This document shows positions 5,965-36,528 of a stretch of 36,528 bases of DNA, piece by piece (the stretch's first letter is position 1; the number at the start of each line of letters is the position of its first letter). Source of the DNA: Polyangium sp. 15x6 (GTDB taxonomy: Bacteria > Myxococcota_A > Polyangia > Polyangiales > Polyangiaceae). Location: the NCBI RefSeq assembly GCF_029960785.1, contig NZ_JASBQE010000112.1:1-36528 (forward strand), written 5' to 3'. A model generated the notes under the pieces. The model made no database searches. It was given only the letters and a program-made list of their open reading frames with translations, and had not been told where the DNA came from. A program made the position numbers and the translations under genes.

Positions 5965-6783
5965 GTGAACGAGAACGAAGACGCGCGACCCTTCTTTGCG
6001 CCTGGCCTCTTCGAGGGACAGGTGGCCATCGTCACCGGCGGCGGCAGCGGCATCGGACTTTCCGTGGCGCGGGAGCTCGGTCGGCTCGGCGCCAGCGTCG
6101 CCATCTGCGGCCGCAAGCCCGAGAAGATCGAAGCGGCGATCAACACCTTGCGCGAGGCCGGCCTCGCCGAGAGCCGGATCCTCGGCTCGCCTTGCGACAT
6201 CCGCGAGCCCGCGCAGATCGAGGCGTTCGTCCGCGGCGTGAACGAGCGCTTCGGCCGCGTCGACATCCTCGTCAACAACGCGGGCGGCCAGTTCCCGAGC
6301 CCGGCCGAGCAGATCTCGCCGAAGGGCTTCGAGGCCGTCGTCCGCAACAACCTGAACGGCACGTTCTACATGACCCGCGAGGTCGCGAACGTGGCCATGA
6401 TCCCGCAGAAGCGCGGCCGCATCGTCAACGTCACGGCCATGGTCGTCCGCGGCTTTCCGGGCATGGCGCACACGGGCGCGGCGCGCGCGGGCGTCGAGAA
6501 CCTCACGCGCACGCTCGCGGTCGAGTGGTCGCAGCATGGGATCCGCGTCAATGCGGTCGCGCCGGGCACGATTCGTTCGAGCGGCACGGCGCAATATGGC
6601 GACGGCATGCTCGAGGTCGCGCGCAAGGCGACGCCGCTCAAGCGCCTCGGCGGCGTGGACGAGGTCGCGCGTGTGGTCGTCTTCCTCGCGAGCGAGCGCA
6701 ACGATTTCATCACGGGCGCGGTGATCCCGATCGACGGGGGCGCCTCGCTCTGGGGCGACATCTGGCAGATCTCCGAACCGTAG
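5965..6783 (+). CDS. SDR-family oxidoreductase, enoyl-/dienoyl-CoA reductase-like
   Basis: 272 residues from a GTG start. It has an NAD(P)-binding Rossmann motif TGGGSGIG, a CDIREPAQIEAF segment, the NNAG motif and a conserved RVNAVAPGTI block. The usual catalytic YxxxK is not in the normal place: the corresponding segment reads MAHTGAARAGVENLT. An AGVENLT-like stretch with HSGAAR is typical of peroxisomal trans-2-enoyl-CoA and 2,4-dienoyl-CoA reductase-like SDRs, so I favour reduction of an unsaturated acyl-CoA over a generic alcohol dehydrogenase. The next gene starts 1 bp after the stop codon, so the two are almost certainly co-transcribed. The region of about 115 bp upstream is shared divergently with rnhA. 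Confidence 0.85.
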   Translation: MNENEDARPFFAPGLFEGQVAIVTGGGSGIGLSVARELGRLGASVAICGRKPEKIEAAINTLREAGLAESRILGSPCDIREPAQIEAFVRGVNERFGRVDILVNNAGGQFPSPAEQISPKGFEAVVRNNLNGTFYMTREVANVAMIPQKRGRIVNVTAMVVRGFPGMAHTGAARAGVENLTRTLAVEWSQHGIRVNAVAPGTIRSSGTAQYGDGMLEVARKATPLKRLGGVDEVARVVVFLASERNDFITGAVIPIDGGASLWGDIWQISEP

Positions 6784-19098: not shown

Positions 19099-21777
19099 CT
19101 ACTTGTCCTTCTCGAGGATCATGAGCTGGACGCGGCGGTTCTTCGCGCGCTGCGCGGCCGTCACGTTCGGGCCGAGGGGCTTGTCCTGACCGTAGCCCTT
19201 CGCCACGAGGCGCGAGGCGTCGACGCCCGCCGCGATGAGCCACGTCCGCACCGCCTGGGCGCGCTGCTCGCTGAGCGACTGGTTGCGCTCGCGCGTGCCC
19301 GTGTTGTCCGTGTGGCCCTGGATCTCGACCTTGCGGATCTTCGGGCTCTGCTGCAGCACGTCCGCGATCTCCTCGAGCAGCGTGTTCGAGTCGCCGAGGA
19401 TCTTCGCCGAGTCGCTCTCGAAGTGCACCTGCCGCGAGATCTTGATCTCGTTGCCCTGCACCTTGACGCTCGCGGCGCGCGCCGCCGGGCGCTTGTTCAT
19501 CGCGAGCGAGACCTTCGCCTCGTCGTTCAGGCGCACGTCCGCGTCGCTCACGTGGTTCATGAAGCCCGCGGCTTCGGCGCGGATCTTCGTCGCGCCGAGG
19601 GGCAGATCGCGGAACGTCACCGCGCCCTTGCCGTCGGCCGTCGCCGTGCGCTCCTTGCCCGTCGCGTCGACGACGCGCACGACCGCCGCGGGGATCGGCT
19701 CGCCCGTCTCGGCGTCACGCACGACCGCCGCGATCGCGCCGATCTTCGGCAGCGCTTCGAGCGCGCAGTCGACGTCCACGATCGCCGGGCCTTGCTGCGG
19801 CGGAGGCGTCGCGGGGGCCGGCGCCGGGGGCTGCGGCAGACCCGTGCTGGGCTGACCGAACGGCGCCGGCGGCGGGAATTGACCCTGCGCGCCGAATTGA
19901 CCCTGCGCGCCGAATGGAGCCTGCGGGCCGAACTGGCCCTGCGCGCCGAACTGGCCCGCCGGAGGTTGCGCCGGTTGCGCCGGTTGCGCCGGCTGCTCGG
20001 CCTTCGGGAGCGTGGGCGGCGGCGGCGCCACCACGGTCGCCTGGCACGTGGCCGGCTTGTAGCCCGGCGCGCGCACCGAGAACGTGTACGTCCCCGGCTC
20101 GAGGTGACGCGTGAGGAACGTACCGCCGGCGCTCGTCGCGAACGGCGGATCCTGGCTCCCCTCGATGGAGACGATCGCGTCGGGGATCACGGCCTCGGGC
20201 TTGTTCGTCTCGTGCACCGTGCCGCGGACGAACGACTGCGGCGCCGGCAGGATCACGGGCTCCGGCGGCGGAGGCGGAGGCGGAGGCGGAGGCGGCGGCG
20301 GCGGCGGCGGCACCTCCTTCGTGTCGTACGCGTACGCGAGTCCGAGGTACATCGTCCACGGCGCTTGCGGCGCGATCTCCTCGATGAACACCGAGGTCGC
20401 CGAGAGGCCGATGTCCACGGCCGCGTGCGCCGACAGGCCGCGGAACGCCTTGCTGAACGGCGTCACGCGCGCGCCGATCGTGAGGCGCGAGGGCAGCCCC
20501 GCGTAGCCGGGGCCGCCTGCGGCCTGCGGATCATCCGCGCTGAAATCGGCGAGCCCGAGGCAGACGTCGCCGCGCGAGACCCAGCCCGTGTGACACTCGT
20601 AGCCTTGCCGGTTCACGGGGATGTCGACCGTGTACTCGACGTACGGCTGCGCGAAGCGGAAGGGCAGCTCCACGCCGATCCACGGCGTGAAGAAGTCGAC
20701 GCGGTTGATCCCGAGGCCGAAGCGCTCGATGCGCGAGATCGGCTGCCGGCTGCGGCCGTCGCGGTACTCGAGCGCGCGCCCTTCTTCCACCTCGCGCACG
20801 AGCTGACCGGAGTTGTCGACCTTGTAGCCGAGGTTCACGTTGATGCGCAGCGGGAAGCCTTGGCCGCCGGGCTTGCGGAAGTCGGCGCTCGCGAGGGCGC
20901 GGAAGAACGCGCTCGTGCCCGCGCCCGAGACGCCCACGCTGCCCGTGCCGTTCAGCAAGAAGAGCTGCGCCTCGGCGCCGAACGAGAAGTACGTCCCGAC
21001 GCGCGACGGCGTGAACGCCTTCAAGCCGAAGTTCGTATCGCCGAGGACCTGCAGGAGCTGCGGCTTGCCTTGATCGTTCGAGTTCGCGTACGTGCGGATC
21101 GCCGCGAACGCCTCGAGGAACGAGAACGGCGTCGCGCTGAGCGCGAAGAACGCGCCGACGTGGCTCGCCGAGTCCGCGAGGTTGTCACGCGTGCAGGTGA
21201 TCCGTTGCCCGGCTGCCGTCGAGAGATCCGGATCGCAGAGGAAGTTCGAGGTCGAGAAGAAGTCGCTGAGGAACGAGACGCGGAACGTCCCGGCCGCGCC
21301 CGAGCCGGCGTACGAGGTGCGCAAGAGGCCGGTCGAGCCGAACGTGTTCGGCTGCTCGATCAGCGTGCGCGCGCGTTCTTCCAGCTCGTCGACCTTCGGC
21401 GGCTCGGCGGGCTTTTCGCCGGCGGGCGGCAGCTCTTGCGTCGCGCCCTGACCGGCGGGCGGCGGCTGCTGCCCCGGCGGGGGCTGGAACTGCCCGGGCG
21501 GCGGCTGGAACTGCCCCGGCGGGGGCTGGAACTGCCCGGGAGGCGGCTGGAACTGTCCCGGCGGCGGCTGGAACTGCCCCGGTTGCGGCTGGAACTGACC
21601 GGGCGGGGGCTGGAATTGCCCCGGTTGCGGCTGGAACTGCCCCGGCGGCGGCTGCGGGCCGAACGGTTGCTGCGCCTTGGCGTCCGCCGTGACCAGGAGG
21701 CAGAAGGCCATGGGAAGCGCGGTGAGCGCGACGAGCCGCAGCGGCTCGGCAAAGGAGGCGTTCTCAAGCGTACGCAT
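19099..21777 (-). CDS. Large OmpA-family outer-membrane protein with Pro/Gln repeats and carboxypeptidase-regulatory-like domains
   Basis: 892 residues. A signal peptide (ALTALPMAFCLLVTADAKAQ) precedes eight PPPGQFQ/PQPGQFQ heptads (residues 46-101), a predicted beta-rich barrel-like section (about 150-495), a run of about 15 prolines, two carboxypeptidase-regulatory-like repeats (FVRGTVHETNKPEAVIPDAIV and AAVVRDAETGEPIPAAVV) separated by Gln/Phe/Pro repeats, and a C-terminal OmpA domain from about 772 (VHFESDSAKIL, IQGHTDNTG, NQSLSEQRAQAV). The OmpA domain binds peptidoglycan, so the protein probably spans the outer membrane and anchors it to the wall. ATG start with GAGG upstream; divergent from the response regulator. 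The Pro-rich runs are likely extended linkers. Confidence 0.88.
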   Translation of the reverse strand: MRTLENASFAEPLRLVALTALPMAFCLLVTADAKAQQPFGPQPPPGQFQPQPGQFQPPPGQFQPQPGQFQPPPGQFQPPPGQFQPPPGQFQPPPGQFQPPPGQQPPPAGQGATQELPPAGEKPAEPPKVDELEERARTLIEQPNTFGSTGLLRTSYAGSGAAGTFRVSFLSDFFSTSNFLCDPDLSTAAGQRITCTRDNLADSASHVGAFFALSATPFSFLEAFAAIRTYANSNDQGKPQLLQVLGDTNFGLKAFTPSRVGTYFSFGAEAQLFLLNGTGSVGVSGAGTSAFFRALASADFRKPGGQGFPLRINVNLGYKVDNSGQLVREVEEGRALEYRDGRSRQPISRIERFGLGINRVDFFTPWIGVELPFRFAQPYVEYTVDIPVNRQGYECHTGWVSRGDVCLGLADFSADDPQAAGGPGYAGLPSRLTIGARVTPFSKAFRGLSAHAAVDIGLSATSVFIEEIAPQAPWTMYLGLAYAYDTKEVPPPPPPPPPPPPPPPPEPVILPAPQSFVRGTVHETNKPEAVIPDAIVSIEGSQDPPFATSAGGTFLTRHLEPGTYTFSVRAPGYKPATCQATVVAPPPPTLPKAEQPAQPAQPAQPPAGQFGAQGQFGPQAPFGAQGQFGAQGQFPPPAPFGQPSTGLPQPPAPAPATPPPQQGPAIVDVDCALEALPKIGAIAAVVRDAETGEPIPAAVVRVVDATGKERTATADGKGAVTFRDLPLGATKIRAEAAGFMNHVSDADVRLNDEAKVSLAMNKRPAARAASVKVQGNEIKISRQVHFESDSAKILGDSNTLLEEIADVLQQSPKIRKVEIQGHTDNTGTRERNQSLSEQRAQAVRTWLIAAGVDASRLVAKGYGQDKPLGPNVTAAQRAKNRRVQLMILEKDK
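21475..21642 (-). repeat. 21-bp tandem coding repeat (eight GQFQPPP/GQFQPQP heptads)
   Basis: Eight consecutive 7-residue units, each 21 bp, encode GQFQPPP (six) or GQFQPQP (two); a ninth, broken unit reads GQQPPP. The units differ mainly at third positions and at one P/Q choice. They form the extended linker behind the signal peptide of the OmpA-family protein and could vary in number between strains. Confidence 0.9.
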
Positions 21778-27347: not shown

Positions 27348-28267
27348 TGCGCGACCTCCTCGGCGTCGATCACGTAGACCCCGGCGATCCGGGCCTCGTC
27401 GAGGTGGCTCCCGTTCGGGTTCCGATCGCCGATCCGCGTCGAATCCAGCACCACGAAATGGTCCCCCGCCGGCAGATCGGCCGTGACCTCCACCTCGTAT
27501 TGCCCCGCATCCGCGTGGGCGCACACGACGGGCTTGTCGTGGCAACCGCTCCGGATCTCCAGCGCGGGCTGGAAATGCGCGGCCGCGCGCAGGCGAATGC
27601 GCGCCTTCGCGGCCAAGGAGAGTCGGTGCACGGATCCTCCGCCGAGGAGGCCACACGAGGCGCGCGCGCCCCCCGATTTCGATTCGAACGTCCCGTACGT
27701 GCGCTCTCCCGGACGAACGAGCGGCGCGCTCGCGCAGAGCGGCGCGACGATCGCGGGATCCTCGGGGCGGATCACCGCGGTCTTCGAAGTGTCGCGATCG
27801 ACGCGGAGCGTGTACGTCCCCGCTTCGTCCCAGAGGTTTCCGTCGACCACGACCCAGTAGAGGCCCGGCTCGAACGGGAGCGACAAGGCGACCTTCCCGC
27901 CGGGCCGCGCGGCCTTGCAGCCGATCGCGAGGCGACCTGGGCGCGCCTTTTCTTTTTTGTTCAAGACCTGGATCACGCCATTGAACGTCTCGGGGACGAA
28001 CTCGAAGCGGTAGCTCGCCGCCTCGCGCACCTCGAAGCCATAGAAGTGATCGAGAGCCTGGCCCGCGCGCCCGCCGTTCTTGCAGCTCGAGCCGATGCCA
28101 TAATCCGGCGAGCGCGTGTCCCCGCGCGAAACCTCGCCGAGCTCGAGCGCCCTCTTCGGTTCGGTGAGCATCGGCGTATCCGGAGACGTGTTGATCCGCG
28201 GAACCTTCGCGCACGCCGAGAGCGCGCAGAGGAGCGCAGCGAGCAGAGGGGCGGGGGAGATCTTCAT
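27344..28267 (-). CDS. Lipoprotein with beta-sandwich-like domains, first gene of a lipoprotein pair
   Basis: 307 residues from the ATG at 28267, which gives LLAALLCALSAC and lipidated Cys19. The frame is open to 28531, but that extension is the translated repeat region (copy A), so it is not coding. The body has strand-rich segments such as HFYGFEVREAASYRFEFVP, LYWVVVDGN and AGTYTLRVDRD, then GQYEVEVTADLPAGDHFVVLD, resembling pre-peptidase C-terminal (PPC)-like or similar secreted beta domains. Translationally coupled to the propeller-like lipoprotein (ATGA overlap). Function unknown; probably outer-membrane associated. Confidence 0.8.
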   Translation of the reverse strand: MKISPAPLLAALLCALSACAKVPRINTSPDTPMLTEPKRALELGEVSRGDTRSPDYGIGSSCKNGGRAGQALDHFYGFEVREAASYRFEFVPETFNGVIQVLNKKEKARPGRLAIGCKAARPGGKVALSLPFEPGLYWVVVDGNLWDEAGTYTLRVDRDTSKTAVIRPEDPAIVAPLCASAPLVRPGERTYGTFESKSGGARASCGLLGGGSVHRLSLAAKARIRLRAAAHFQPALEIRSGCHDKPVVCAHADAGQYEVEVTADLPAGDHFVVLDSTRIGDRNPNGSHLDEARIAGVYVIDAEEVAQ

Positions 28268-28340
28268 GAAGCCGGCGCCATCTTGCCCGGGACGACGGAG
28301 CGCGTCCACGAGGAAGGCCTGAGCATTGGTCTCATCTGGG

Positions 28341-28455
28341 AGGCGCTTCGCCGGGGCGCTGCCCCGGTCCCCGCGGGGGCTATCCGCCCCTCGACCCGGA
28401 CCAGGGCAAGCCCTGGACTCGGGGTGGAAGAACTGCGCTCCGCGCAGTTCTTCCA
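28341..28455 (+). repeat. Multi-hairpin repeat, copy A (diverged)
   Basis: About 115 bp matching copies B and C in order and fold. Hairpins: CCGGGGC/GCCCCGG (28351-28367); a weaker GGGGC/GCCCC; CCAGGGC/GCCCTGG (28401-28416); and a 14-bp stem TGGAAGAACTGCGC/GCGCAGTTCTTCCA (28425-28455) with loop TCC. Compared with B and C, base changes in three stems occur as matched pairs, so folding is kept. Directly after, 28450-28459 can instead pair with 28462-28471 (CTTCCAACGG/CCGTTGGAAG), competing with the last stem. It lies 74 bp upstream of, and antisense to, the lipoprotein gene at 28267. Confidence 0.85.
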
Positions 28456-28532
28456 ACGGGGCCGTTGGAAGACCAGGGACAGCGTTGCCGATCAAAAGGT
28501 CAGCGCGGCTGTCTTGGTTGGCAGGGGTCATT

Positions 28533-28660
28533 CCTCGGCCTGTTCGATGAACTGCGCATCGCGCAGTTCATCGACCCCGGGTCCAGCGCTTGCGCTGGTC
28601 CGGGTCCAGGGGCGGACAGCCCCTGGTGGGGGCTGGGGCGAAGCCCCAGCGAAGCGGCTT
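28533..28660 (-). repeat. Multi-hairpin repeat, copy B (inverted)
   Basis: 128 bp, reverse complement of copy C with five differences by my count. Stems: 28544-28557/28561-28574 (14 bp, TCGATGAACTGCGC), CCAGCGC/GCGCTGG, CCAGGGGC/GCCCCTGG and CTGGGGC/GCCCCAG. On the minus strand it begins at the very stop codon of the gene at 28660-29544 (one base shared), so it would be the 3' end of that transcript. With copy A it forms a large imperfect inverted repeat around a 77-bp centre. Confidence 0.88.
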
Positions 28661-29544
28661 CAGCTCTCGCCCACCGCCTCCTCCAGCTCGGCCACACGCG
28701 CGGCGAGCTCCGCGTCGGCCTTCCTGGCCGCCTGGAGCTCGGCCTTCTTTTGCGACTTCTCCGCGTCGGCCCTGGCGCGCGCGAGGGCTTCCTCTTGTGC
28801 GACCATCTCGTCGCGCTGCTTCTTCATGACATTGAGCTCCACCTCGGCTGCCGCGATGCGCCGGTCGAGCTCTTTCACGGAGAGCCGCTCCGCGCTCGAT
28901 CCCTGACGGAAGAAGGAATTGGCCCAGCCGGTGCCGAGCTCGGGCGTCTTGTGCTGGATCTCGCCGAGCTTGCCGTGGAGCGATTTCCGCAGCGCATTGA
29001 ACGCGTCGACGCACTGCTTGCGCGGGCCGAGGGTCCGGAAATCGGCGATCTTCTGGCCGACGGTCGCCTGCGCCGTGGTCCTCTGATCGGCGTGCTCCAC
29101 GAGCTGCGCGAGCTCGGCCCCGATCGCCTGGAGTTGCTTGCTCGATGCCGCCTGAAGAGAAGGGGGCCAGTGGCGCATGGTATCGAGCTGCCCGCCGAGG
29201 ATGGGGCGTTTGAGCTCGCTCGGCCTCAGGCTCGCGAAGTAATGGACGTACGGCAGGGCGCCGCGGTCGTTCTTCGACTCGATGAGGGTCAGGGCGGAGA
29301 TGGCGTCGGTCAGCCGATCGAGGTCGTCGTCCACGAACTCGACGGCGGCGTTCGCCGCGAAGCGCTCGCCGATCAGCGTGAGCTCCTCCATCAAGGTCGC
29401 GTCGAGCTGCGGGCGGAAGGCATCGAGCTCGATCACGAGCGACGCCGCGAGCGGGTGCGATACGAGGTGCCCGCGTGTGAAAAAGAACTCTTCATACAGC
29501 GTGAGAATGCCCGTCCGTGCGACGAGCGTGACAATTCCAGCCAT
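28660..29544 (-). CDS. Unknown protein with C-terminal coiled coil
   Basis: 294 residues, not recognised. The first about 215 residues look globular and mostly helical (AASLVIELDAFRPQL, DRLTDAISALTLIES). The last about 75 form a charged heptad-like helix (LDRRIAAAEVELNVMKKQRD to AELAARVAELEEAV), a strong coiled-coil candidate. The start MAGIVTLVARTGILTLYEEFFF has no signal peptide. GGGTG sits about 6 bp before the ATG. The stop codon abuts repeat copy B. It could be a structural or scaffold protein; no catalytic motif was seen. Confidence 0.7.
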   Translation of the reverse strand: MAGIVTLVARTGILTLYEEFFFTRGHLVSHPLAASLVIELDAFRPQLDATLMEELTLIGERFAANAAVEFVDDDLDRLTDAISALTLIESKNDRGALPYVHYFASLRPSELKRPILGGQLDTMRHWPPSLQAASSKQLQAIGAELAQLVEHADQRTTAQATVGQKIADFRTLGPRKQCVDAFNALRKSLHGKLGEIQHKTPELGTGWANSFFRQGSSAERLSVKELDRRIAAAEVELNVMKKQRDEMVAQEEALARARADAEKSQKKAELQAARKADAELAARVAELEEAVGES

Positions 29545-30099
29545 GACGGCACCCTAACGCGGCACACAAGCGGGGAGCAACACAAAACTGGACGGACAAC
29601 GTGCGTCGAGCCTCGCCGGGGGATTTGCGGCGGCCGGAGGGCCGAGGTGCGCGACGCGGGGTGGATTCGGGCGGCCGACTGGCTCCCGTCGAGGGGCGAC
29701 GCGGGGCGGGGGGCGTCGGACTGGCTTCCGTCGAGGGTCGGCGGGGCGCGGTGAGGGCCGAACTGGCTCCCGTCGAGGGGCGACGGGGGGCGTGGAGGAT
29801 GGGACTTCGTTCGGTCGAGGGCACGCGGCGGGGGTTCGGGCGGGGATCGGGGACCGGCGGCGCTTTGCGGGCGGGGGAGGGGCGGCGGGCCGTGGGCCGT
29901 GAGGCGCGGCGCGGCGGGGCAGGTGGGCCAAGGAGGAGCGCGGACGTCGCCGACGCGATTCGGGGGGACGCAGGGGCGGGTGGAAGGTGCGCGGGAGGCG
30001 GCGGGCCGAGCGAGAGGGACGAGGGACGGTGCTGTGAGTCGACATCCTGCTATGCATTCCCGTCGTAGCTCGAGCCGTGCGTAACATGCTGTCACCAAA
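29545..30099. other. GC-rich intergenic stretch without a convincing gene
   Basis: A 555-bp gap between divergently transcribed genes. Several frames are open only because the sequence is extremely G/C-biased; none has a start, ribosome-binding site and protein-like composition together. It contains a degenerate 42-bp tandem repeat (listed separately). The right part, near 30040-30090, is less biased and probably holds the promoter of the gene at 30100, but I cannot point to clear boxes. Confidence 0.6.
29652..29819. repeat. Four degenerate 42-bp tandem repeats
   Basis: Four units share a core close to CTGGCTCCCGTCGAGGG on the plus strand (for example ACTGGCTCCCGTCGAGG, ACTGGCTTCCGTCGAGG). 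Read on the minus strand, one frame gives 14-residue units beginning LDGSQ or LDRTK. That frame lacks a signal, start or plausible fold, so I treat the repeat as non-coding. It is not a CRISPR: the units are adjacent with no unique spacers. Confidence 0.6.
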
Positions 30100-31668
30100 A
30101 TGCCTGCCGTACGCGACTTCATCGGTTCACGGGGCCTCCTTTCCGCATGGGTGGGGCCCGCCGGGCTTCTTCTCCGTGCAGCCCTCCTGTCCCTTGCAGC
30201 GTGCGGCGGGGAACCCGTCTTCACGAAGCTCTTCACGAGCGAGCACTTCGATTACTACGTGGAAGAGGGAGCCACCCCGCCGTGCGACGGCGCAGCCCAG
30301 TGGCTCGAGCGCTACTACAGCGCGAACGCCAAGTTCCTGGGCGCGACCCTCCCACCCGGCGAGAGAATCCAATACTACCTCGTTCGAAACAAGGAGTCGC
30401 TTCTTCCATGCCCTCCTGACGCGCCTGCCTGTGCGGATGGTACGACGATTTACGCCTTCAGACCTCTGCATCTTCACGAGATTGTGCATGCCAATGCCTC
30501 TCTCATGGGAAACCCGCCGGCCCTTTTTACCGAGGGTCTCGCCGAGGTCCTCAGTTGCCCCACGACGACCGACAGCGAAGGACCCCTCGATACGTCCGAA
30601 CCCATCGAGACGCTGGTGGAAACACGAGCTTTCAATGACTGGCGCGTAGCGAACGGCTTCGGGGTGTACAACACGAGCGCGAGTTTCGTGCGATTTCTCA
30701 TCGACGAGTTCGGCTCGTCGCGCTTCTTGTCGTTCTATGCGCGTGTGCCGTGGGATGCGTCTCGTCAGGAGATCGAAGCCGTGTTTCAGGCCGAATTTGG
30801 GGTTCGCCTCGATGAGGCGTTCTCAGCTTGGCGGATGGAACCACTTCGATACTTCGGTGACAAGTGTCTCAGAGTCATGGATTGCGATCCGAGCATGCCG
30901 TCGCTGACCGACACCGACGTAACGTTAAGCTGTGGACCTTGGGGCGGCTTCATGCAGACGCAGGAGGCGCTCCTTCGGTTCGAGGTCCCGAACGATCGCA
31001 TCCTCCATGTCACGGTGGCTCCTGTCCCGACGGATCCGTACTTCTCGTCGAGCGTCCGCTTCTATCGATGTGCCGGCGGCGATGCCGTCGGCGACTTCAG
31101 CAGTACCGCCGGGACTCGTGTGAGCGCAGATCGGAACTGGCACATCGATCCTGCGCAGCCGGGGAGCGCCTTTGCGCTGGACGTGCCGCCGGGCGAATAC
31201 GTGGCATGGTTCGCGGGCATTGCACCTGAAGAAATTCGGATTCATCTCGACGCCGAGGAGCGGCTGAGCCCGATGAGGAATCCCGCCTGCCAACCGGCGG
31301 AGGAGCCGCTCGCTCTGGACGACAAGCATCCGACGACGCTGACGACCCGATGGATCGAACGGCCTTGCCAGGGGCCGTGGTGCCCAGGACAAAGCTGGGA
31401 CGTGTCGATCGGGACGACGGGAGGAGCGCTGGAGGCACGAGTCATCACCCCCATCAAGGGACCGAATTTCTCCCCAGGCGAGCTCTACATCTGCTCGGAG
31501 CCGTGCCCGGAGGACACGAGCCATTGCGAGATCCTCGCATTGGACCCGGAAGGCCGTCCCGTCCGGTCGACGCAGACGTTCGAGCCCGGCACCGTGTTGC
31601 ACCTGGGCGCACCGGCGGCGCCGTTCGCAGATCGCTTTGCCGTGCAGCTGCGCGTCGCTCCGGAATAG
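30100..31668 (+). CDS. Lipoprotein with gluzincin-like HExxH site (putative secreted metallopeptidase)
   Basis: 522 residues. A lipoprotein signal ends LLSLAAC (Cys35). Residues 126-130 read HEIVH and are followed by ALFTEGLAEVLS with Glu145; the HExxH plus downstream E in an FTEGLAE-type helix is the gluzincin zinc pattern. The N-terminal about 280 residues thus look like a metallopeptidase domain; the rest is Cys-containing and beta-rich (GGALEARVITPIKGP). Family not identified; a non-peptidase zinc protein is possible. The codon bias is weaker and GC lower than in most neighbours, so the gene may be of foreign or relaxed origin (inference by eye). Confidence 0.75.
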   Translation: MPAVRDFIGSRGLLSAWVGPAGLLLRAALLSLAACGGEPVFTKLFTSEHFDYYVEEGATPPCDGAAQWLERYYSANAKFLGATLPPGERIQYYLVRNKESLLPCPPDAPACADGTTIYAFRPLHLHEIVHANASLMGNPPALFTEGLAEVLSCPTTTDSEGPLDTSEPIETLVETRAFNDWRVANGFGVYNTSASFVRFLIDEFGSSRFLSFYARVPWDASRQEIEAVFQAEFGVRLDEAFSAWRMEPLRYFGDKCLRVMDCDPSMPSLTDTDVTLSCGPWGGFMQTQEALLRFEVPNDRILHVTVAPVPTDPYFSSSVRFYRCAGGDAVGDFSSTAGTRVSADRNWHIDPAQPGSAFALDVPPGEYVAWFAGIAPEEIRIHLDAEERLSPMRNPACQPAEEPLALDDKHPTTLTTRWIERPCQGPWCPGQSWDVSIGTTGGALEARVITPIKGPNFSPGELYICSEPCPEDTSHCEILALDPEGRPVRSTQTFEPGTVLHLGAPAAPFADRFAVQLRVAPE

Positions 31669-31931
31669 AAGCCATCCGGCGGGTCAGCCTGTAAGAACCC
31701 AACCGACGAGGTCATCCTCCCAGCAGCATATTAGGCAGATCAGGCTCATGCCGCGCTCGGGCAGACTTCATTGTTCGAGCGAAATGTCCCGGCCGGGGGA
31801 CCTCATGTGCTCGAGAGAGACCTCACGAAGAGAATACCGGAGCAGCGGCAGGGGAGTTAGGCGACAGCTCTCGCTGCGTGAAAACTGGCCATGGTAGATG
31901 ACGGATGACGACTTCGAGCCCAGGCCGGATC
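31669..31931. other. Intergenic region between the gluzincin-like gene and the cassette-like genes
   Basis: 263 bp, no gene seen. Core-like heptamers occur (ACCCAAC at 31697-31703 and GTTAGGC at about 31856-31862), but the DNA between them does not fold with matching inner arms, so I do not call an attC here. It may contain the left boundary of the cassette-like segment. Confidence 0.4.
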
Positions 31932-32588
31932 TCAATCAGCCGGTCGGTGGCTTGCCTTGTAAACCGCCAATTGAGCGTCGAAAGCCCGCTTGTAGGCGGG
32001 CCGCGCTTCGCCGCGGGCGACATAGGCGGCCAGGTTCGGAAATTCGTTCAGAATGCCCGATGATTTCAGCCTGAGCAGCACCGACACCATCATCAGGTCG
32101 CCCGCGCTGAACGCACCGTCGAGCCATTCGGCATCGCCCAGGCGAGCGGAAAGTCGTTTCAGCTGGTTGCGGACGCGATCCTCGACCAGAGGCAGACGTT
32201 CCTCGAACCAGCTCTTGTCGCCCTCCAGGAGTCTGGCGTTTCCGAGTTCGAGGATCGGCGGCTCCACCGTGTTGAGCGCGGCGAACATCCAAGTGATCGC
32301 GCGCGCCCGCGCGTTGGCATCGTCCGGCAGCAGGCCCGCATGGCGATTGGCGATATGGAAGACGATCGCGCCCGTCTCGAACAGGGCGAGATCGCCTTCC
32401 TCGTAAGTCGGAATCTGGCCGAAAGGATGAAGCGCCAGATGCGCGGGTTCCTTCATCGCGCGAAACGAAACAAGGCGAACCTCGTAAGGCTGGCCCACTT
32501 CTTCAAGCGCCCAGCGAACGCGCGTATCACGCGCCAGTCCCCTGCCGCCGTCGGGTGACCGCTCAAAGGCGGTGATGGTGATGGTCAT
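31932..32588 (-). CDS. Glutathione S-transferase family protein
   Basis: 218 residues preceded by a strong AAGGAGGAGC ribosome-binding site. The N-terminal thioredoxin-like domain has the cis-Pro region FGQIPTYEEGDLALFETGAIVFHI, and the all-helical C-terminal domain has the GST motif FSAGDLMMVSVLLRL. GSTs conjugate glutathione to electrophiles. Base composition is less GC-rich than the chromosomal genes and the codon use differs, which suggests acquisition. It is the last of four minus-strand, cassette-like genes. Confidence 0.88.
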   Translation of the reverse strand: MTITITAFERSPDGGRGLARDTRVRWALEEVGQPYEVRLVSFRAMKEPAHLALHPFGQIPTYEEGDLALFETGAIVFHIANRHAGLLPDDANARARAITWMFAALNTVEPPILELGNARLLEGDKSWFEERLPLVEDRVRNQLKRLSARLGDAEWLDGAFSAGDLMMVSVLLRLKSSGILNEFPNLAAYVARGEARPAYKRAFDAQLAVYKASHRPAD

Positions 32589-32649
32589 CGTGAGGCTCCT
32601 CCTTGGCGAAAATCATCGGTCGCGGGGCAGCGTGCTCCGTCGGTCTGCA

Positions 32650-32730
32650 ATACAACACGTAGTTGGGCGGTACCGCTGTACGGTGCCGCGTCGGTCCGCA
32701 TTTCGGTCGGCCTCAGGGCATGCGTTGGGC
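32650..32730 (-). other. Candidate attC-like site or remnant
   Basis: On the minus strand GCCCAAC (32730-32724) starts 28 bp after the stop codon of the frameshifted membrane gene, and GTTGTAT (32656-32650) ends the segment; the spacers GCATG/TACGT are 5 bp each. An internal hairpin GCGG-x-ACCG/CGGT-x-CCGC is present. The second stem is poor and the terminal box is off consensus, so this is a degenerate site or a remnant. Confidence 0.4.
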
Positions 32731-32758
32731 GGTTCTGTCTTCCAATGCGGGTGGAGCC

Positions 32759-33875
32759 TCACCGCTCTCGCAGCGATTCGAGCGCGCGCGCCACCGCTGG
32801 GAAGCGCGCGGCGAGGGTGCGCTCGATCCATCGGTTCCCCAGGGTGATCGCGAGGAACAGAGGACCCAAGAGGCAAACGGCTTCGATCGTCGTGCGTGCG
32901 GCCGGGTAGAGAGCGTAGGCGAGGGCGAGGGCGAGCACGCCGGCGAGCAGCACCACGCCGGCGTGCCACAGCGACCAGCGCGGCCTCGTCGGCAGATGCG
33001 GCAGATAGGGCGTGACCTCGAGGAGTCCGCGCTCCACCGCGGACTTGCAGGCCAGAGGCGGCAGCGCCACGAATAGGTGATTGTCTCCGTGGGTCTCGAC
33101 GGAGAACAGGCGCAGCTCGCATCCCAGCGCGTGGGGCGCGGGCATTGCAGAGGTCGACGAAATCGAAGACATCCATGGTCTCTTCGCTCTCCCTCCAGGC
33201 GCGGAGCGCGGCGTCGAAGCACGCGTCCTCTGGCACGCCGATCATCTTCGGCAGCTCTTCCCAGGCGTCCACGTCCCGGTGGTCGAAGCTGTGAACCCAT
33301 CGCTTCCCCTTGTGAGTGGCGAGGTCGTCGGAGCCACTGGCGGCGTCGAGCAGCAACCACACCTCCTCGGAGCCGCTCTCGTCGAACTGCCATCGGCCCT
33401 CGCTCGTGTCGTACTCGGCCCAGGATTTCAGGCCCTCGCCGACCTCGTCCACGAAATCGTCACGGGAGACCCCGCGGAGCCGTCCCGTCACCGCCGCGAA
33501 GTTGGTGATCCAGGTGGAAAGCCGGTACTGCCGCGCCGCCGGGCGCGCCCCGAAGACCTCGAGCATGGGGCCGAGGTGGGGGGCCCGGGCCACGAGCGCC
33601 TGCTCCACGCCGGCCCGTAGCGAGGCGAGCCTTGCGACCTCGACGACGTCGAGCGCCACGCTCGGGTTGCGCCGGGTGAGCGAGGGGATGGCTTTGCCTG
33701 CAAGCGACGTCAGCCCGCGGAGGAGCGCGCTCACCTCGCCGTCCGGCAGGACGCGCCCGTCCACCATCCCGGCAATCCGGAGCTGCCGGAAGCGCTCCGA
33801 TAGCTCGAAGGCGAAGGCCTCGGGCGCACGCGTGTAAAGGGTGACGCGCAGTTGAAGCAGGATCGGGGGAGCCAC
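32759..33875 (-). pseudogene. Membrane protein gene of unknown function broken by a single-base frameshift
   Basis: From a GTG at 33875, a protein-like frame runs to ETMDVFDFVDLCNARAP, then continues meaningfully only in another frame (HALGCELRLFSVETHGDNHLFV to RALESLRER, stop at 32759). One surplus G in the GGGG run at 33133-33136 (C on the coding strand) would explain it. Restored length is about 371 residues: soluble N-terminal part, then two hydrophobic segments (WHAGVVLLAGVLALALAYAL and AVCLLGPLFLAITLG). Not recognised. Could be a true pseudogene, a sequencing error or programmed slippage. The start lies 10 bp after a GTTAGGT core box, as in integron cassettes. Confidence 0.75.
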
Positions 33876-33885
33876 GGCGCGCGAA

Positions 33886-33892
33886 ACCTAAC
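33886..33892 (-). other. Integron-like core box GTTAGGT
   Basis: GTTAGGT on the minus strand fits the GTTRRRY recombination core and is 10 bp before the GTG of the frameshifted membrane gene. The partner box expected near the SMI1/KNR4 stop (34061) is not clear: around 34033 only a weak AAC-containing match is seen. The region 33893-34060 holds no gene. Confidence 0.45.
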
Positions 33893-34060
33893 AGGTCTCT
33901 GCACCCTTTGCGACCGGCAGGACGCCGTGCCGACGGGAGCGCGAGGCTTCTGCCGATGGCCCTCTCGCGGCCTCTCGGCTCAGCCCCAGCCGGAACGAAG
34001 CTGCCGCGGGCCGGGCTGCCGAGCGCAGCGAGGTTGTCCGAACCGTCGGCGAGCGCGACT

Positions 34061-34798
34061 TCATCCGATAAACTCCCCCCAGAAAGGAATGCGCTTCGCT
34101 GCCTGCCATTCCGCTTCGGTCACGCTTTCAGCACCGCGCGGATGGGGCACTTCGAGCAAATCGGCCAACTCGGCCAGGAGCAGGGTCCGCACATCCGGGG
34201 CGTGGATGATGATGTCTGACTGGTAAACGGAGAGCACAACATATCCACGCGGGGTGTCTGCCTCTACCAAGTAACGGTGCCCCACCACGGGAACGAGGCG
34301 AGGCGCCCGGCCGAGCACATCAGCAAGTCGGTGCCGAGCCTCCGCTTCGTCCGAAGGATGCGGGCCCCATTCATCGCGCCACAGACTGCTGTACAGGACA
34401 TCAAACACCAAGCCTTCGAGCGGCCACTCGATCGCGTCCGCGATCCATTCGTCATCCGCGAGCCAGTTGAGGAACGATGGTGCCTCGTCTTCGACGAGGG
34501 TTGTTTCGTCCGCGAAACCCGCATGGAACATGTGGCGGTCCGGCGCGTGCAGGCTTCGCAGGAAGGTCCGGTAGTCCCCGGGAAAGTGCAGACCATACTT
34601 CCGCTCGGCAGCGGCGATCTGAGCGTCCGTGAGCCCGTCCAGCCAGCGGGTCCCTGGCCACCACGCACAGCCGCCAACGCCGGCGCGCTCGAAGGTCTCG
34701 AGCGATGGCTGAGGCCACGTCGCCCACGCGCGCTCGCTGCGGACGCGAACCCATTCCAAGAACGGATCGAGATCAACTGGCGGAGTAGATGTCTTCAT
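34061..34798 (-). CDS. SMI1/KNR4 (SUKH)-family protein
   Basis: 245 residues from the ATG at 34798; a TTG 21 bp upstream lies in the attC edge and is less likely. The typical SMI1/KNR4 core is present: GLTDAQIAAAERKYGLHFPGDYRTFLRSL, then a C-terminal part with a WxxEW-like section and IPFWGEFIG. SUKH proteins are often immunity proteins against contact-dependent or polymorphic nuclease toxins, but no toxin gene is nearby. The ATG begins 15 bp after the core box at 34814-34820, as expected for a mobile gene cassette. A solitary immunity gene in a cassette would protect against a toxin met elsewhere (inference). Confidence 0.85.
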   Translation of the reverse strand: MKTSTPPVDLDPFLEWVRVRSERAWATWPQPSLETFERAGVGGCAWWPGTRWLDGLTDAQIAAAERKYGLHFPGDYRTFLRSLHAPDRHMFHAGFADETTLVEDEAPSFLNWLADDEWIADAIEWPLEGLVFDVLYSSLWRDEWGPHPSDEAEARHRLADVLGRAPRLVPVVGHRYLVEADTPRGYVVLSVYQSDIIIHAPDVRTLLLAELADLLEVPHPRGAESVTEAEWQAAKRIPFWGEFIG

Positions 34799-34813
34799 CC
34801 AGCGTGTCCGTCC

Positions 34814-34891
34814 GCCCAACGTTTGAGTTCACCCGCGGGCGGAAGCAGGCGAAGCCTGCTGTAGCACGTCGGGTGCAACGAAGGGTTAGGC
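34814..34891 (-). other. Integron attC recombination site
   Basis: 78 bp. On the plus strand GCCCAAC (34814-34820) and GTTAGGC (34885-34891) are the inverted core boxes. Inside, GTTCACCCG on one arm pairs with CGGGTGCAAC on the other, leaving exactly one unpaired base, the extrahelical G typical of attC. Unpaired 5-6 bp spacers separate core and inner boxes. A central hairpin AGCAGGC/GCCTGCT completes the fold. The VOC stop codon (TAA) lies within the GCCTAAC box on the minus strand, and the next gene begins 15 bp past the other box. All this is canonical attC organisation. Confidence 0.88.
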
Positions 34892-35260
34892 CTCGGGTTC
34901 GTGGCAAACCACTTCGATGTTGTGCCCGTCCGGATCAATGACGAAAGCTGCATAGTAGTTCGCGTGGTAGTGCGGGCGCAGGCCAGGCGCACCATTGTCT
35001 TTGCCACCCGCCTCCAGAGCCGCGCGATGGAAAGCTTCGACTTGCTGGCGATTCTCGGCCGTGAACGCCAAGTGAAGATGCGCCGGCTTCTCCTCGGTTT
35101 GGTACAGGCACAATGAAGCCTTACCCTTTGGGCTGAGTTCGACACCGTACGTCGGCGGCCCCTCCGAGACAACAGCTACGCCGAGCGGTTCGAGTGCCTT
35201 GAGGAAGAACGCTTTGCTCGCTGCATAGTCGCTGACTCCGAATTTGACGTGGTCAAACAT
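34886..35260 (-). CDS. VOC-superfamily (glyoxalase/bleomycin-resistance-like) protein
   Basis: 124 residues, AGGAGAACTC directly before the ATG. It starts MFDHVKFGVSDYAASKAFF and ends DPDGHNIEVVCHEPEA, giving the VOC metal ligands near His4 and Glu116 with an internal HLHLAF segment. VOC proteins include glyoxalase I and antibiotic-binding or -modifying enzymes; the substrate cannot be told. It is clearly less GC-rich than the chromosomal genes. The stop codon is part of the attC core box, so this is the best-supported gene cassette of the window. Confidence 0.9.
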   Translation of the reverse strand: MFDHVKFGVSDYAASKAFFLKALEPLGVAVVSEGPPTYGVELSPKGKASLCLYQTEEKPAHLHLAFTAENRQQVEAFHRAALEAGGKDNGAPGLRPHYHANYYAAFVIDPDGHNIEVVCHEPEA

Positions 35261-35292
35261 GAGTTCTCCTGAAGTGTGTGGGCCTGCGCGAG

Positions 35293-35348
35293 GCCTAACT
35301 GTGTAATCAGCCCGCCGTCGCATGACCACCCCTCCGCGCTGGTTAGGT
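35293..35348 (-). other. Core-box pair upstream of the VOC cassette (possible degenerate attC or insertion site)
   Basis: ACCTAAC and GTTAGGC on the minus strand (35348-35342 and 35299-35293) form inverted 7-bp boxes 42 bp apart; the second is 32 bp before the VOC start codon. The DNA between does not show the normal inner stem with 5-bp spacers (only CAGC/GCTG pair, with an 8-base bulge). It marks the probable right end of the cassette-like segment. Region 35261-35400 otherwise holds no gene. Confidence 0.5.
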
Positions 35349-35400
35349 CTCTTTCGGGGATTCGGCAGCGCCAGCGTATTCGCGACTGTTGCCGCAAAAT

Positions 35401-36288
35401 TCATGAACGCCCCGGCACCGGCACGCACCTCGGCCCGCTGCACGGCACGTGCTCCGGGACGCAGCACGCCGCGCGCGAGGGGCCCAGCTCGACGTCCGTC
35501 ACCCGTACCGTCAAGTCGGGCAGCGCGATCCTGCCCACCGCGGTCCACGCGCGCGTCTCGGCGCAGGCCGTGTGGCCCTCGGCCGGTGGGGGATCGATCG
35601 CGAGCTCGCGCGACAACACGCCATCGATCGGGAACGATACGGCGCCGTCGTGCGCCTCGGCCTCGATGCCCGTCTCGGTCTCGATCAGCGCCGCGAGCTC
35701 CGGCGCTCGCAGATCGCCCAGTGCGATCCGCGCGAGCTCTCCGCGCGCCCACGCGTGCACCGCGGTGCCGTCGCCCGACGCGCCCGTCGCCGCGGCGTCC
35801 ACTCGGATCGACGGCGGCGCCGCGGCGAACGGCGTCACGCAGCCCGTGCAGCGCGTTCCGTCGAGGCCCACTCCGTCCGTGCGTTCGAACGGGCCGACGA
35901 TCCCGGTGATCGTCGCGTCGCTCGCCGGCTGCCACAGGAGCAGCGCGCCGCGATCGTCGCCGTCGCGCACCAGACGGATCGCCACCGCCGGACCCAGCAC
36001 CGACGCGATCGGCTCGCGATCGAGGCGGCCCACCATCGAGCCCGAGACCACCTCGTCCTCCCGGTCGGGGATCGCGCCGAGGTCGTTCCGCGCGTCGATC
36101 GTCCCGCGGTAGAGCACGGTGTCGTCCGCGTAGAGCCACCACATCCGGCGCCGCACCCCCTCGACGCCTGCCGTTTGCACCGACGCGAGCGCAGGATCAC
36201 TCGCGGGCTCGACCGTCTCCCGTGGCACCGCGCGCGCTCCGCCGCACGCACCGAGGATCACGCCGAGCGCTGCTGCCATCGTCCGCAC
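35401..36288 (-). CDS. Lipoprotein of unknown function
   Basis: 295 residues from a GTG (an ATG three codons later is possible). The signal RTMAAALGVILGAC gives lipidated Cys15. The mature protein is Asp/Glu- and Ala-rich with high-GC chromosomal codon use, unlike the cassette-like genes to its left. C-terminal cysteines are clustered (AACCVPEHVPC, GPRC). No domain recognised. It marks the return to ordinary chromosomal sequence; repeat copy C lies upstream of its start in the opposite orientation. Confidence 0.75.
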   Translation of the reverse strand: MRTMAAALGVILGACGGARAVPRETVEPASDPALASVQTAGVEGVRRRMWWLYADDTVLYRGTIDARNDLGAIPDREDEVVSGSMVGRLDREPIASVLGPAVAIRLVRDGDDRGALLLWQPASDATITGIVGPFERTDGVGLDGTRCTGCVTPFAAAPPSIRVDAAATGASGDGTAVHAWARGELARIALGDLRAPELAALIETETGIEAEAHDGAVSFPIDGVLSRELAIDPPPAEGHTACAETRAWTAVGRIALPDLTVRVTDVELGPSRAACCVPEHVPCSGPRCVPVPGRS

Positions 36289-36380
36289 GCCCGCAGCGTG
36301 CCATAGGGCCGACCCGATCGCCCGCGCAGCGGAGGCAGCGCGGTGTCGGACGTGTGCTTCGGGGTCGCGCGAGCATGTCG

Positions 36381-36508
36381 AAGCCGTTGCGCTGGGGCGT
36401 CGCCCCAGGCCCCACCAGGGGCTATCCGCCCCTGGACCCGGACCAGCGCAAGCGCTGGACCCGGGGTCGATGAACTGCGCGATGCGCAGTTCATCGAACA
36501 GGCCGAGG
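36381..36508 (+). repeat. Multi-hairpin repeat, copy C
   Basis: 128 bp, five differences from copy B by my count. Hairpins in order: CTGGGGC/GCCCCAG (36392-36408); CCAGGGGC/GCCCCTGG with loop TATCC (36415-36435); CCAGCGC/GCGCTGG (36443-36458), extended by CCCGG/CCGGG flanks; and a perfect 14-bp stem TCGATGAACTGCGC/GCGCAGTTCATCGA with loop GAT (36467-36497). It starts 92 bp upstream of the lipoprotein start at 36288, antisense to it, the same relation copy A has to the lipoprotein gene at 28267. No gene lies between 36289 and the window end. Confidence 0.88.
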
Positions 36509-36528
36509 CAAGACCGGCGACGACCCTG

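Follow-up and report, generated by a model that had tools for sequence, protein, structure and literature searches.

A REPIN-like palindromic element, probably mobile and non-autonomous, in genomes of Polyangium

The window analysed here is an entire contig (C14, 36528 bases) of Polyangium sp. 15x6, whose 13.4 Mb genome is divided among 275 contigs, and it carries three related arms of a hairpin-rich palindromic repeat. Two of these are the inverted arms of one ~320-bp element: arm A, which is A-type, lies on the plus strand at 28341–28474 (hairpins H1 at 28351–28367, H2 at 28374–28393, H3 at 28401–28416 and H4 at 28425–28455), arm B, which is B-type, lies on the minus strand at 28526–28661 (H4 at 28544–28574, H3 at 28583–28598, H2 at 28606–28626 and H1 at 28633–28649), and a central spacer at 28475–28525 separates them. 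Arm A is preceded on the plus strand by an outer extension at 28320–28340 (TGAGCATTGGTCTCATCTGGG), a fuller end that is retained by a minority of copies, and at its other side the element abuts the stop codon at 28660–28662 (minus strand; TCA on the plus strand) of a predicted gene at 28660–29544. Arm C, which is B-type and solo here, lies on the plus strand at 36380–36515, and is perhaps single owing to the end of the contig at 36528, with any partner lying beyond it. Other contigs of the same genome also start or end with an arm (e.g. C37, C173, C233, C260 and C271), as expected since assemblies break on repeats. Arms A and B are 81% complementary and B and C are 95% alike, while fold z-scores ranged from −4.5 to −6.9 against 200 shuffles, with stable folds for the arms and also for the reverse strand of C.

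An initial annotation of this DNA had described three copies of a repeat with four hairpins in the same order, distinguished by four covarying base pairs. All three were found where it had placed them and the paired changes are real, namely CTGG/CCAG to CCGG/CCGG in stem 1, CCAGCGC/GCGCTGG to CCAGGGC/GCCCTGG in stem 3, and two changed pairs in the 14-bp stem 4. However, the three copies are three arms, of which A and B are not independent since they belong to one element, and the hairpins of B run 4-3-2-1 on the plus strand, so that they show the common order only in a minus-strand reading. Likewise, A is unlike B and C because A and B represent two arm types, and the four covarying pairs in the window therefore reflect one old difference between types and not four independent events; further pair-change events come from arms genome-wide. 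Long open reading frames span the region, yet a protein-coding explanation was rejected, as gene prediction by coding potential leaves 28310–28659 uncoded and both flanking genes are kept in two sister genomes without the element (G003 and G005; here G000 denotes the own genome and G001–G005 the five other genomes of the genus).

Using a 29-base core pattern with up to three mismatches, we found 557 matches in the own genome and 494, 270, 268 and 217 in G002, G003, G004 and G005, respectively, with none for the reversed pattern that served as a control. G001, which is the smallest genome, had only 51 matches compared with 217–557 in the other five. DNA comparison across 39 genomes, scoring at most the 22 best candidates per genome, gave matches in seven, these being the six of the genus and one weak match (E 6e-4). 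A covariance-model search with stricter filters, scoring the best 31 candidates per genome, gave matches in eight of 108 genomes of the family, again the six of the genus and two others, so that outside the genus 2/102 matched, one with a single match (3.3e-7) and the other with four, the best of them at 0.006. In an exact pattern scan of named genomes all 46 among the matches listed came from Polyangium sp. 6x1 and y55x31, and the exact core pattern had no match in viral contigs. These searches describe a repeat family of several hundred dispersed DNA copies that is almost confined to one soil-bacterial genus. In the open-licence PubMed Central (PMC) literature no Polyangium repeat was named in titles among the matches listed, which is no proof of its being unpublished, and the sole match there for repetitive extragenic palindromes (REPs) together with myxobacteria was unrelated by its title.

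We next applied an arm profile to 60 regions (1.168 Mb) and detected 157 arms, comprising 66 inverted pairs (132 arms) and 25 solo arms, seven of which are at the edge of a contig or region. Each of the 66 neighbour pairs separated by under 200 bp was inverted, plus then minus with H4 facing inward, and no other orientation was seen, while five further neighbour pairs at 200–1000 bp were of mixed orientation. Typing of 43 pairs by the better of two seed arms gave 35 of A with B in either order, eight of B with a B-like arm, and none of A with A. Doublets measure 267–346 bp (median 313), with gaps of 27–117 bp between paired arms, and each arm is ~130 bp with four short-loop hairpins; doublet arms scored slightly above internal solo arms (132 vs 18, P 0.034). 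For the outer end TGAGCATTGGTCTCATC, 42 of 217 arms had a relaxed GCATTGGTCTCAT match within 60 bases of upstream sequence, compared with 2 of 217 when shuffled. Two inverted arm pairs with wider interiors of 482 and 541 bp (L078 and L109, respectively) have no content in common besides their arms, and a larger autonomous element was accordingly rejected in a check that covered ~2.2 Mb of several genomes, a sample that a single-copy autonomous element could escape.

Comparison of orthologous sites then revealed six copies, five doublets and one partial solo arm, for which the corresponding site in a sister species has no element, and from this we infer that the element has moved. The flanking target duplications that the initial annotation had proposed looking for were absent in all nine filled/empty comparisons at these six sites (0/9), as the flanks never overlap. 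In the cleanest case (L122 in G003 vs L121 in G005) the empty site joins without overlap or gap between two convergent stop codons. The element of the window is itself absent from its sites in G003 and G005, although 47 bases of the empty site are unaligned and its exact left end is therefore not fixed. Elements are shared at other sites: one lies beside the right flank of L081:5230 in five of the six genomes.

The hairpins are well maintained across the family. In 194 full arms, drawn from 237 non-redundant arms among 289 hits, Watson-Crick pairing was 100% in stem 1, 98–100% in stem 4, 100% in the outer five pairs of stem 3 and 99–100% in the inner five pairs of stem 2, with weaker pairing in the outer three pairs of stem 2 (97, 96 and 51%) and in the stem 3 pair just inside those five (82%). 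With the exception of a few outer pairs, this agrees with the maintained hairpins of the initial annotation. Pairing is not maintained in an outer helix that surrounds stem 3 (61–93% Watson-Crick), and G-T stands at one outer position of stem 2 in 81 of 171 arms, which we take to be mainly A-type. In a MAFFT alignment of 49 of the 194 arms, chosen for diversity, 95.5% of cells were paired compared with 88.9 ± 0.4% in shuffles, against a structure derived from one arm of the set, which favours that structure. Pairing fell to 33–50% when the partner was slid by 1–3 columns, and 15 of 36 pairs changed on both sides vs 9.2 ± 1.2 in shuffles. The covariation score was 0.174 vs 0.064 shuffled. On a tree of the unpaired columns we counted changes in 31 chosen pairs, leaving out three outer stem 2 pairs and the innermost stem 3 pair because of gaps or alignment shifts, and inferred 68 two-sided Watson-Crick changes vs 11 one-sided (five to A-C, one to G-T and five other). 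Some of the two-sided changes, chiefly the to-and-fro ones, may be hairpin exchange between arms and not mutation.

Stem 4 loops occur in both directions among 200 arms (GAT 114 and ATC 4; TCC 51 and GGA 1; TTC 6 and GAA 1). Where inverted repeats undergo template switching, their arms are reported to become homogenised and their spacers inverted (PMC8604942), and such switching is also reported to yield compensatory changes in RNA stems (PMC8794818). With the inverted loops, these reports lead us to read the pairing pattern as at least partly the product of a DNA process, and DNA hairpins with template-switch correction fit the pairing data at least as well as selection on RNA.

Placing genes by codon-usage prediction showed 90 of 91 elements to be intergenic, with a median of 15 bp to gene 3′ ends (stop codons; 117 measured) and 132 bp to 5′ ends (start codons; 47 measured), in regions that were in part picked for holding elements. 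Within 400 contiguous kb of G005, which lie in an element-rich part of the chromosome and are not centred on single elements, gaps of at least 30 bp were occupied in 9/34 convergent, 5/130 tandem and 1/48 divergent cases. Elements in tandem gaps lie near the upstream stop (P 3e-7; 25 of 26 elements used, each having over 60 bp of free gap). There was no preference for TGA at the insertion point, as adjoining stops were TGA in 72 cases, TAG in 26 and TAA in five, compared with 72%, 20% and 8% of predicted genes, respectively. On the 13.24-Mb chromosome of G005 all 46 exact B-type cores lie at 1.85–9.28 Mb, 44 of them in the middle half (Kolmogorov–Smirnov P 4e-4), and forty evenly spaced 20-kb samples contained 27 arms, all at 2.6–9.3 Mb. 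Judged by a coarse GC-skew curve the origin would lie near coordinate 0, and the family therefore seems to sit in the terminus half of this chromosome.

We consider it likely that the window contains two copies, one complete and the other truncated by the contig end, of a mobile palindromic element that is genus-specific and non-autonomous and that resembles REPINs (REP doublets forming hairpins) without being a proven REPIN. A REP/REPIN-like mobile element had been one suggestion of the initial annotation, and it is supported by the inverted doublets, the hundreds of mostly intergenic copies and the empty orthologous sites. By analogy with REPINs, replication would expose single strands that fold into strings of hairpins, and these folded single-stranded arms would be recognised by a trans-acting enzyme that inserts a copy. 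Insertions would survive mainly at gene 3′ ends, and pairing would be kept by selection together with replication template switching within hairpins; the element may also have a secondary role at the 3′ ends of transcripts. If this is correct, Polyangium harbours a REPIN-like population with unusually long four-hairpin arms that is moved by something other than a REP-associated tyrosine transposase (RAYT). With 51 to 557 arms each, and filled and empty sites that can be compared, the six species would then offer a natural system for finding the mobilising enzyme. The few G-U intermediates and the inverted loops would also make these repeats well suited to testing whether template switching lies behind ‘compensatory’ changes, and would warn against taking covariation in repeats as proof of RNA.

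Several observations weigh against this mobile REPIN-like element. Its outer ends are variable, so that no exact terminus can be defined, and its arms are at least twice as long as ordinary REPs (20–60 bp). The GT(A/G)G head is rare in the A- and B-type arms, being found in 4 of the 90 A-type arms listed (of 97) and none of the 95 B-type arms listed (of 99) compared with 13/26 D-type arms, and GTAG at the foot of H1 follows the same course (2 of 90, 0 of 95 and 13/26, respectively). The positional figures share the partial selection of regions noted above, and adjacency to stop codons could come from selection on function and not from insertion. Further pair types did not exceed shuffles (18 vs 17.0, with 166/500 shuffles reaching 18), the 68 two-sided events rest on a tree of short repeats and 31 chosen pairs with hairpin exchange possible, and loop GGT (16 among the 200 arms) has no inverted partner (ACC 0). 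Finally, no mobilising enzyme was found: a search of 25 genomes with Y1_Tnp (PF01797) gave no match in G002, G004 and G005, which carry hundreds of arms.

The four Y1_Tnp genes detected in the genus are in G000, G001 and G003 (3/6 genomes). None is flanked by arms when at least 1.5 kb is read on each side, a weak partial arm lies 2.7 kb from one (L182), and the G000 match, which covers positions 63–121 of the 121 in the profile, looks like a remnant. RAYTs are reported to be always flanked by two inverted REPs (PMC2817692). The check for a REP-associated transposase was thus negative, and a RAYT or IS200-type mobiliser was rejected as Y1_Tnp is missing from three of six genomes and not arm-flanked in the others; an ancient RAYT that has since been lost is conceivable.

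Absence of Y1_Tnp from three genomes, and of flanking arms elsewhere, also means that the element cannot be placed among the REPINs with RAYTs. It shares with REPs and REPINs the inverted palindromic doublets, the many extragenic copies and an apparent capacity to move, but does not show the single-palindrome unit of ~20–60 bp, the GT(A/G)G head or the repeat-flanked RAYT (Y1_Tnp). It further differs from REPINs in pairing two arm types and having no RAYT found. BOX repeats, which are small and interspersed in the genome, are modular. BOX and RUP of Streptococcus pneumoniae (PMC3049150) are likened to the Polyangium family by description only and belong to another phylum. REP doublets as described by Bertels and Rainey (2011, PMC3116915) are likewise inverted with a spacer and present in hundreds of extragenic copies, and are better conserved than solo units, in line with the slightly higher scores of doublet arms here, whereas the REPs described there have an imperfect palindromic core of ~20–60 bp and the Polyangium arms are ~130 bp with four hairpins. 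GTAG/CGTC-tagged REPs (PMC3733652) also adjoin genes, and their GTAG ends are reported often to provide the stop codon of flanking open reading frames. Half of the D-type arms share the GTAG, nearly none of the A- and B-type arms do, and the Polyangium arms far exceed the tagged REPs in length. The names Myxococcus, Sorangium and Polyangium do not occur in the main text of PMC3733652.

A first alternative is a transcript 3′-end element, whose hairpins end or protect the mRNAs of neighbouring genes (from both strands where the genes converge) and are kept by selection for this RNA role. The median of 15 bp to stop codons vs 132 bp to start codons, the occupancy being highest in convergent gaps, the bias to the upstream stop in tandem gaps and the stable folding both of the arms and of C on its reverse strand would all be accounted for. 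However, no T-run terminator was found at 28200–28750, and the elements are absent from orthologous gene ends in sister species and are therefore not required there. Selection on RNA should moreover tolerate G-U, which arose from only one of the 11 one-sided changes in the counted pairs, although the stem 2 outer pair that is frequently G-T lies outside that count. We regard this explanation as unlikely, and the transcript-end element of the initial annotation stands as to its position next to stop codons but not as to function. Its small structured RNA found no support: the window had no Rfam match at gathering score, a simple scan found no sigma-70-like promoter and the counted pairs show two-sided changes with nearly no G-U intermediates, results with which an RNA role nevertheless remains compatible.

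Two inverted arms around a non-coding centre, in hundreds of copies, would also suit a miniature inverted-repeat transposable element, the long inverted ends of which are cut and pasted by an ordinary DDE transposase encoded elsewhere in the genome. We consider this improbable, as target-site duplication was seen in none of the nine filled/empty comparisons, terminal inverted repeats with fixed outer ends are lacking, and solo arms occur.

Fainter still is the prospect of a retro-element copied by a retron reverse transcriptase (RT). Searching 25 genomes with PF00078 identified a retron-type RT, here RT-b (best PADLOC profile RT_XIII, 6.6e-156; also RVT_1), which is present with a very conserved upstream region in all six genomes of the genus (L166–L171 for G000–G005). 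Arms follow its stop codon in 6/6, the form varying by species: G003 and G005 have two doublets, G001 and G004 have single arms and G000 has a tandem hairpin array. This array, at L166:1471–1834, is built of a ~86-bp hairpin unit and was not seen downstream of RT-b in the other five. A second retron-like RT, RT-a, has open frames of 494–547 aa in each of the six genomes (L172–L177) and no arms in the loci read (6/6). The arms could on this basis belong to a passenger resembling a short interspersed nuclear element (SINE), its hairpin-rich 3′-end transcripts being copied by the chromosomal type XIII retron RT and inserted at gene ends, which we hold to be very doubtful; if true, the two would form a bacterial counterpart of a SINE and its long interspersed nuclear element. 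The placement of arms directly 3′ of RT-b but not at RT-a favours such copying, and there is a reported precedent in Nannocystis exedens (Lampson and Rice 1997, via PMC6868368), also a myxobacterium with a retron and dispersed repeats; those repeats are reported to resemble multicopy single-stranded DNA (msDNA), whereas the Polyangium arms show no such resemblance.

The association with RT-b is suggestive only. Its gap is convergent and thus a favoured place in any case, one old insertion could explain 6/6 since relatives are not independent, and several kinds of gene had been tried (two retron-like RTs, group II-like RTs and Y1). Among 22 gaps comparable in at least four species, three were occupied in at least one and only the RT-b gap was filled in six, numbers too small for a null rate to be set. 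Upstream of the RT-b frame, where an msr-msd would be expected, the sequence is unlike the arms in 6/6 genomes, as the arm profile had no match in 600 bases and short-word BLAST gave only two 13-base hits; there is thus no likeness to an msr-msd copy, the msr-msd itself not being delimited. An RT match was present in 50 genomes outside the genus, of which 24 were taken, and of the 23 with enough downstream sequence (L251 had only 42 bases) none had stems of at least 12 bp in the 620 bases downstream of the RT. Moreover, among five other RT loci (L178–L181 and L185) a partial arm lies 0.4 kb away in L179 and 2.8 kb away in L181, with none in the remaining three.

At L112:6094–7117 a group II-like intron RT is cut off after its YADD motif by a partial arm. 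Rfam analysis of L171, L166 and L112 gave no match apart from a group II intron lying outside the arms (in L112, RF00029 at 6670–6754 on the minus strand), and a link with group II introns was rejected, the partial arm at this broken RT being a single case that we take as incidental.

The window also contains short-period repeats of 21 and 42 bp at 21406–21675 and 29636–29828, which are unrelated to the element as far as seen.

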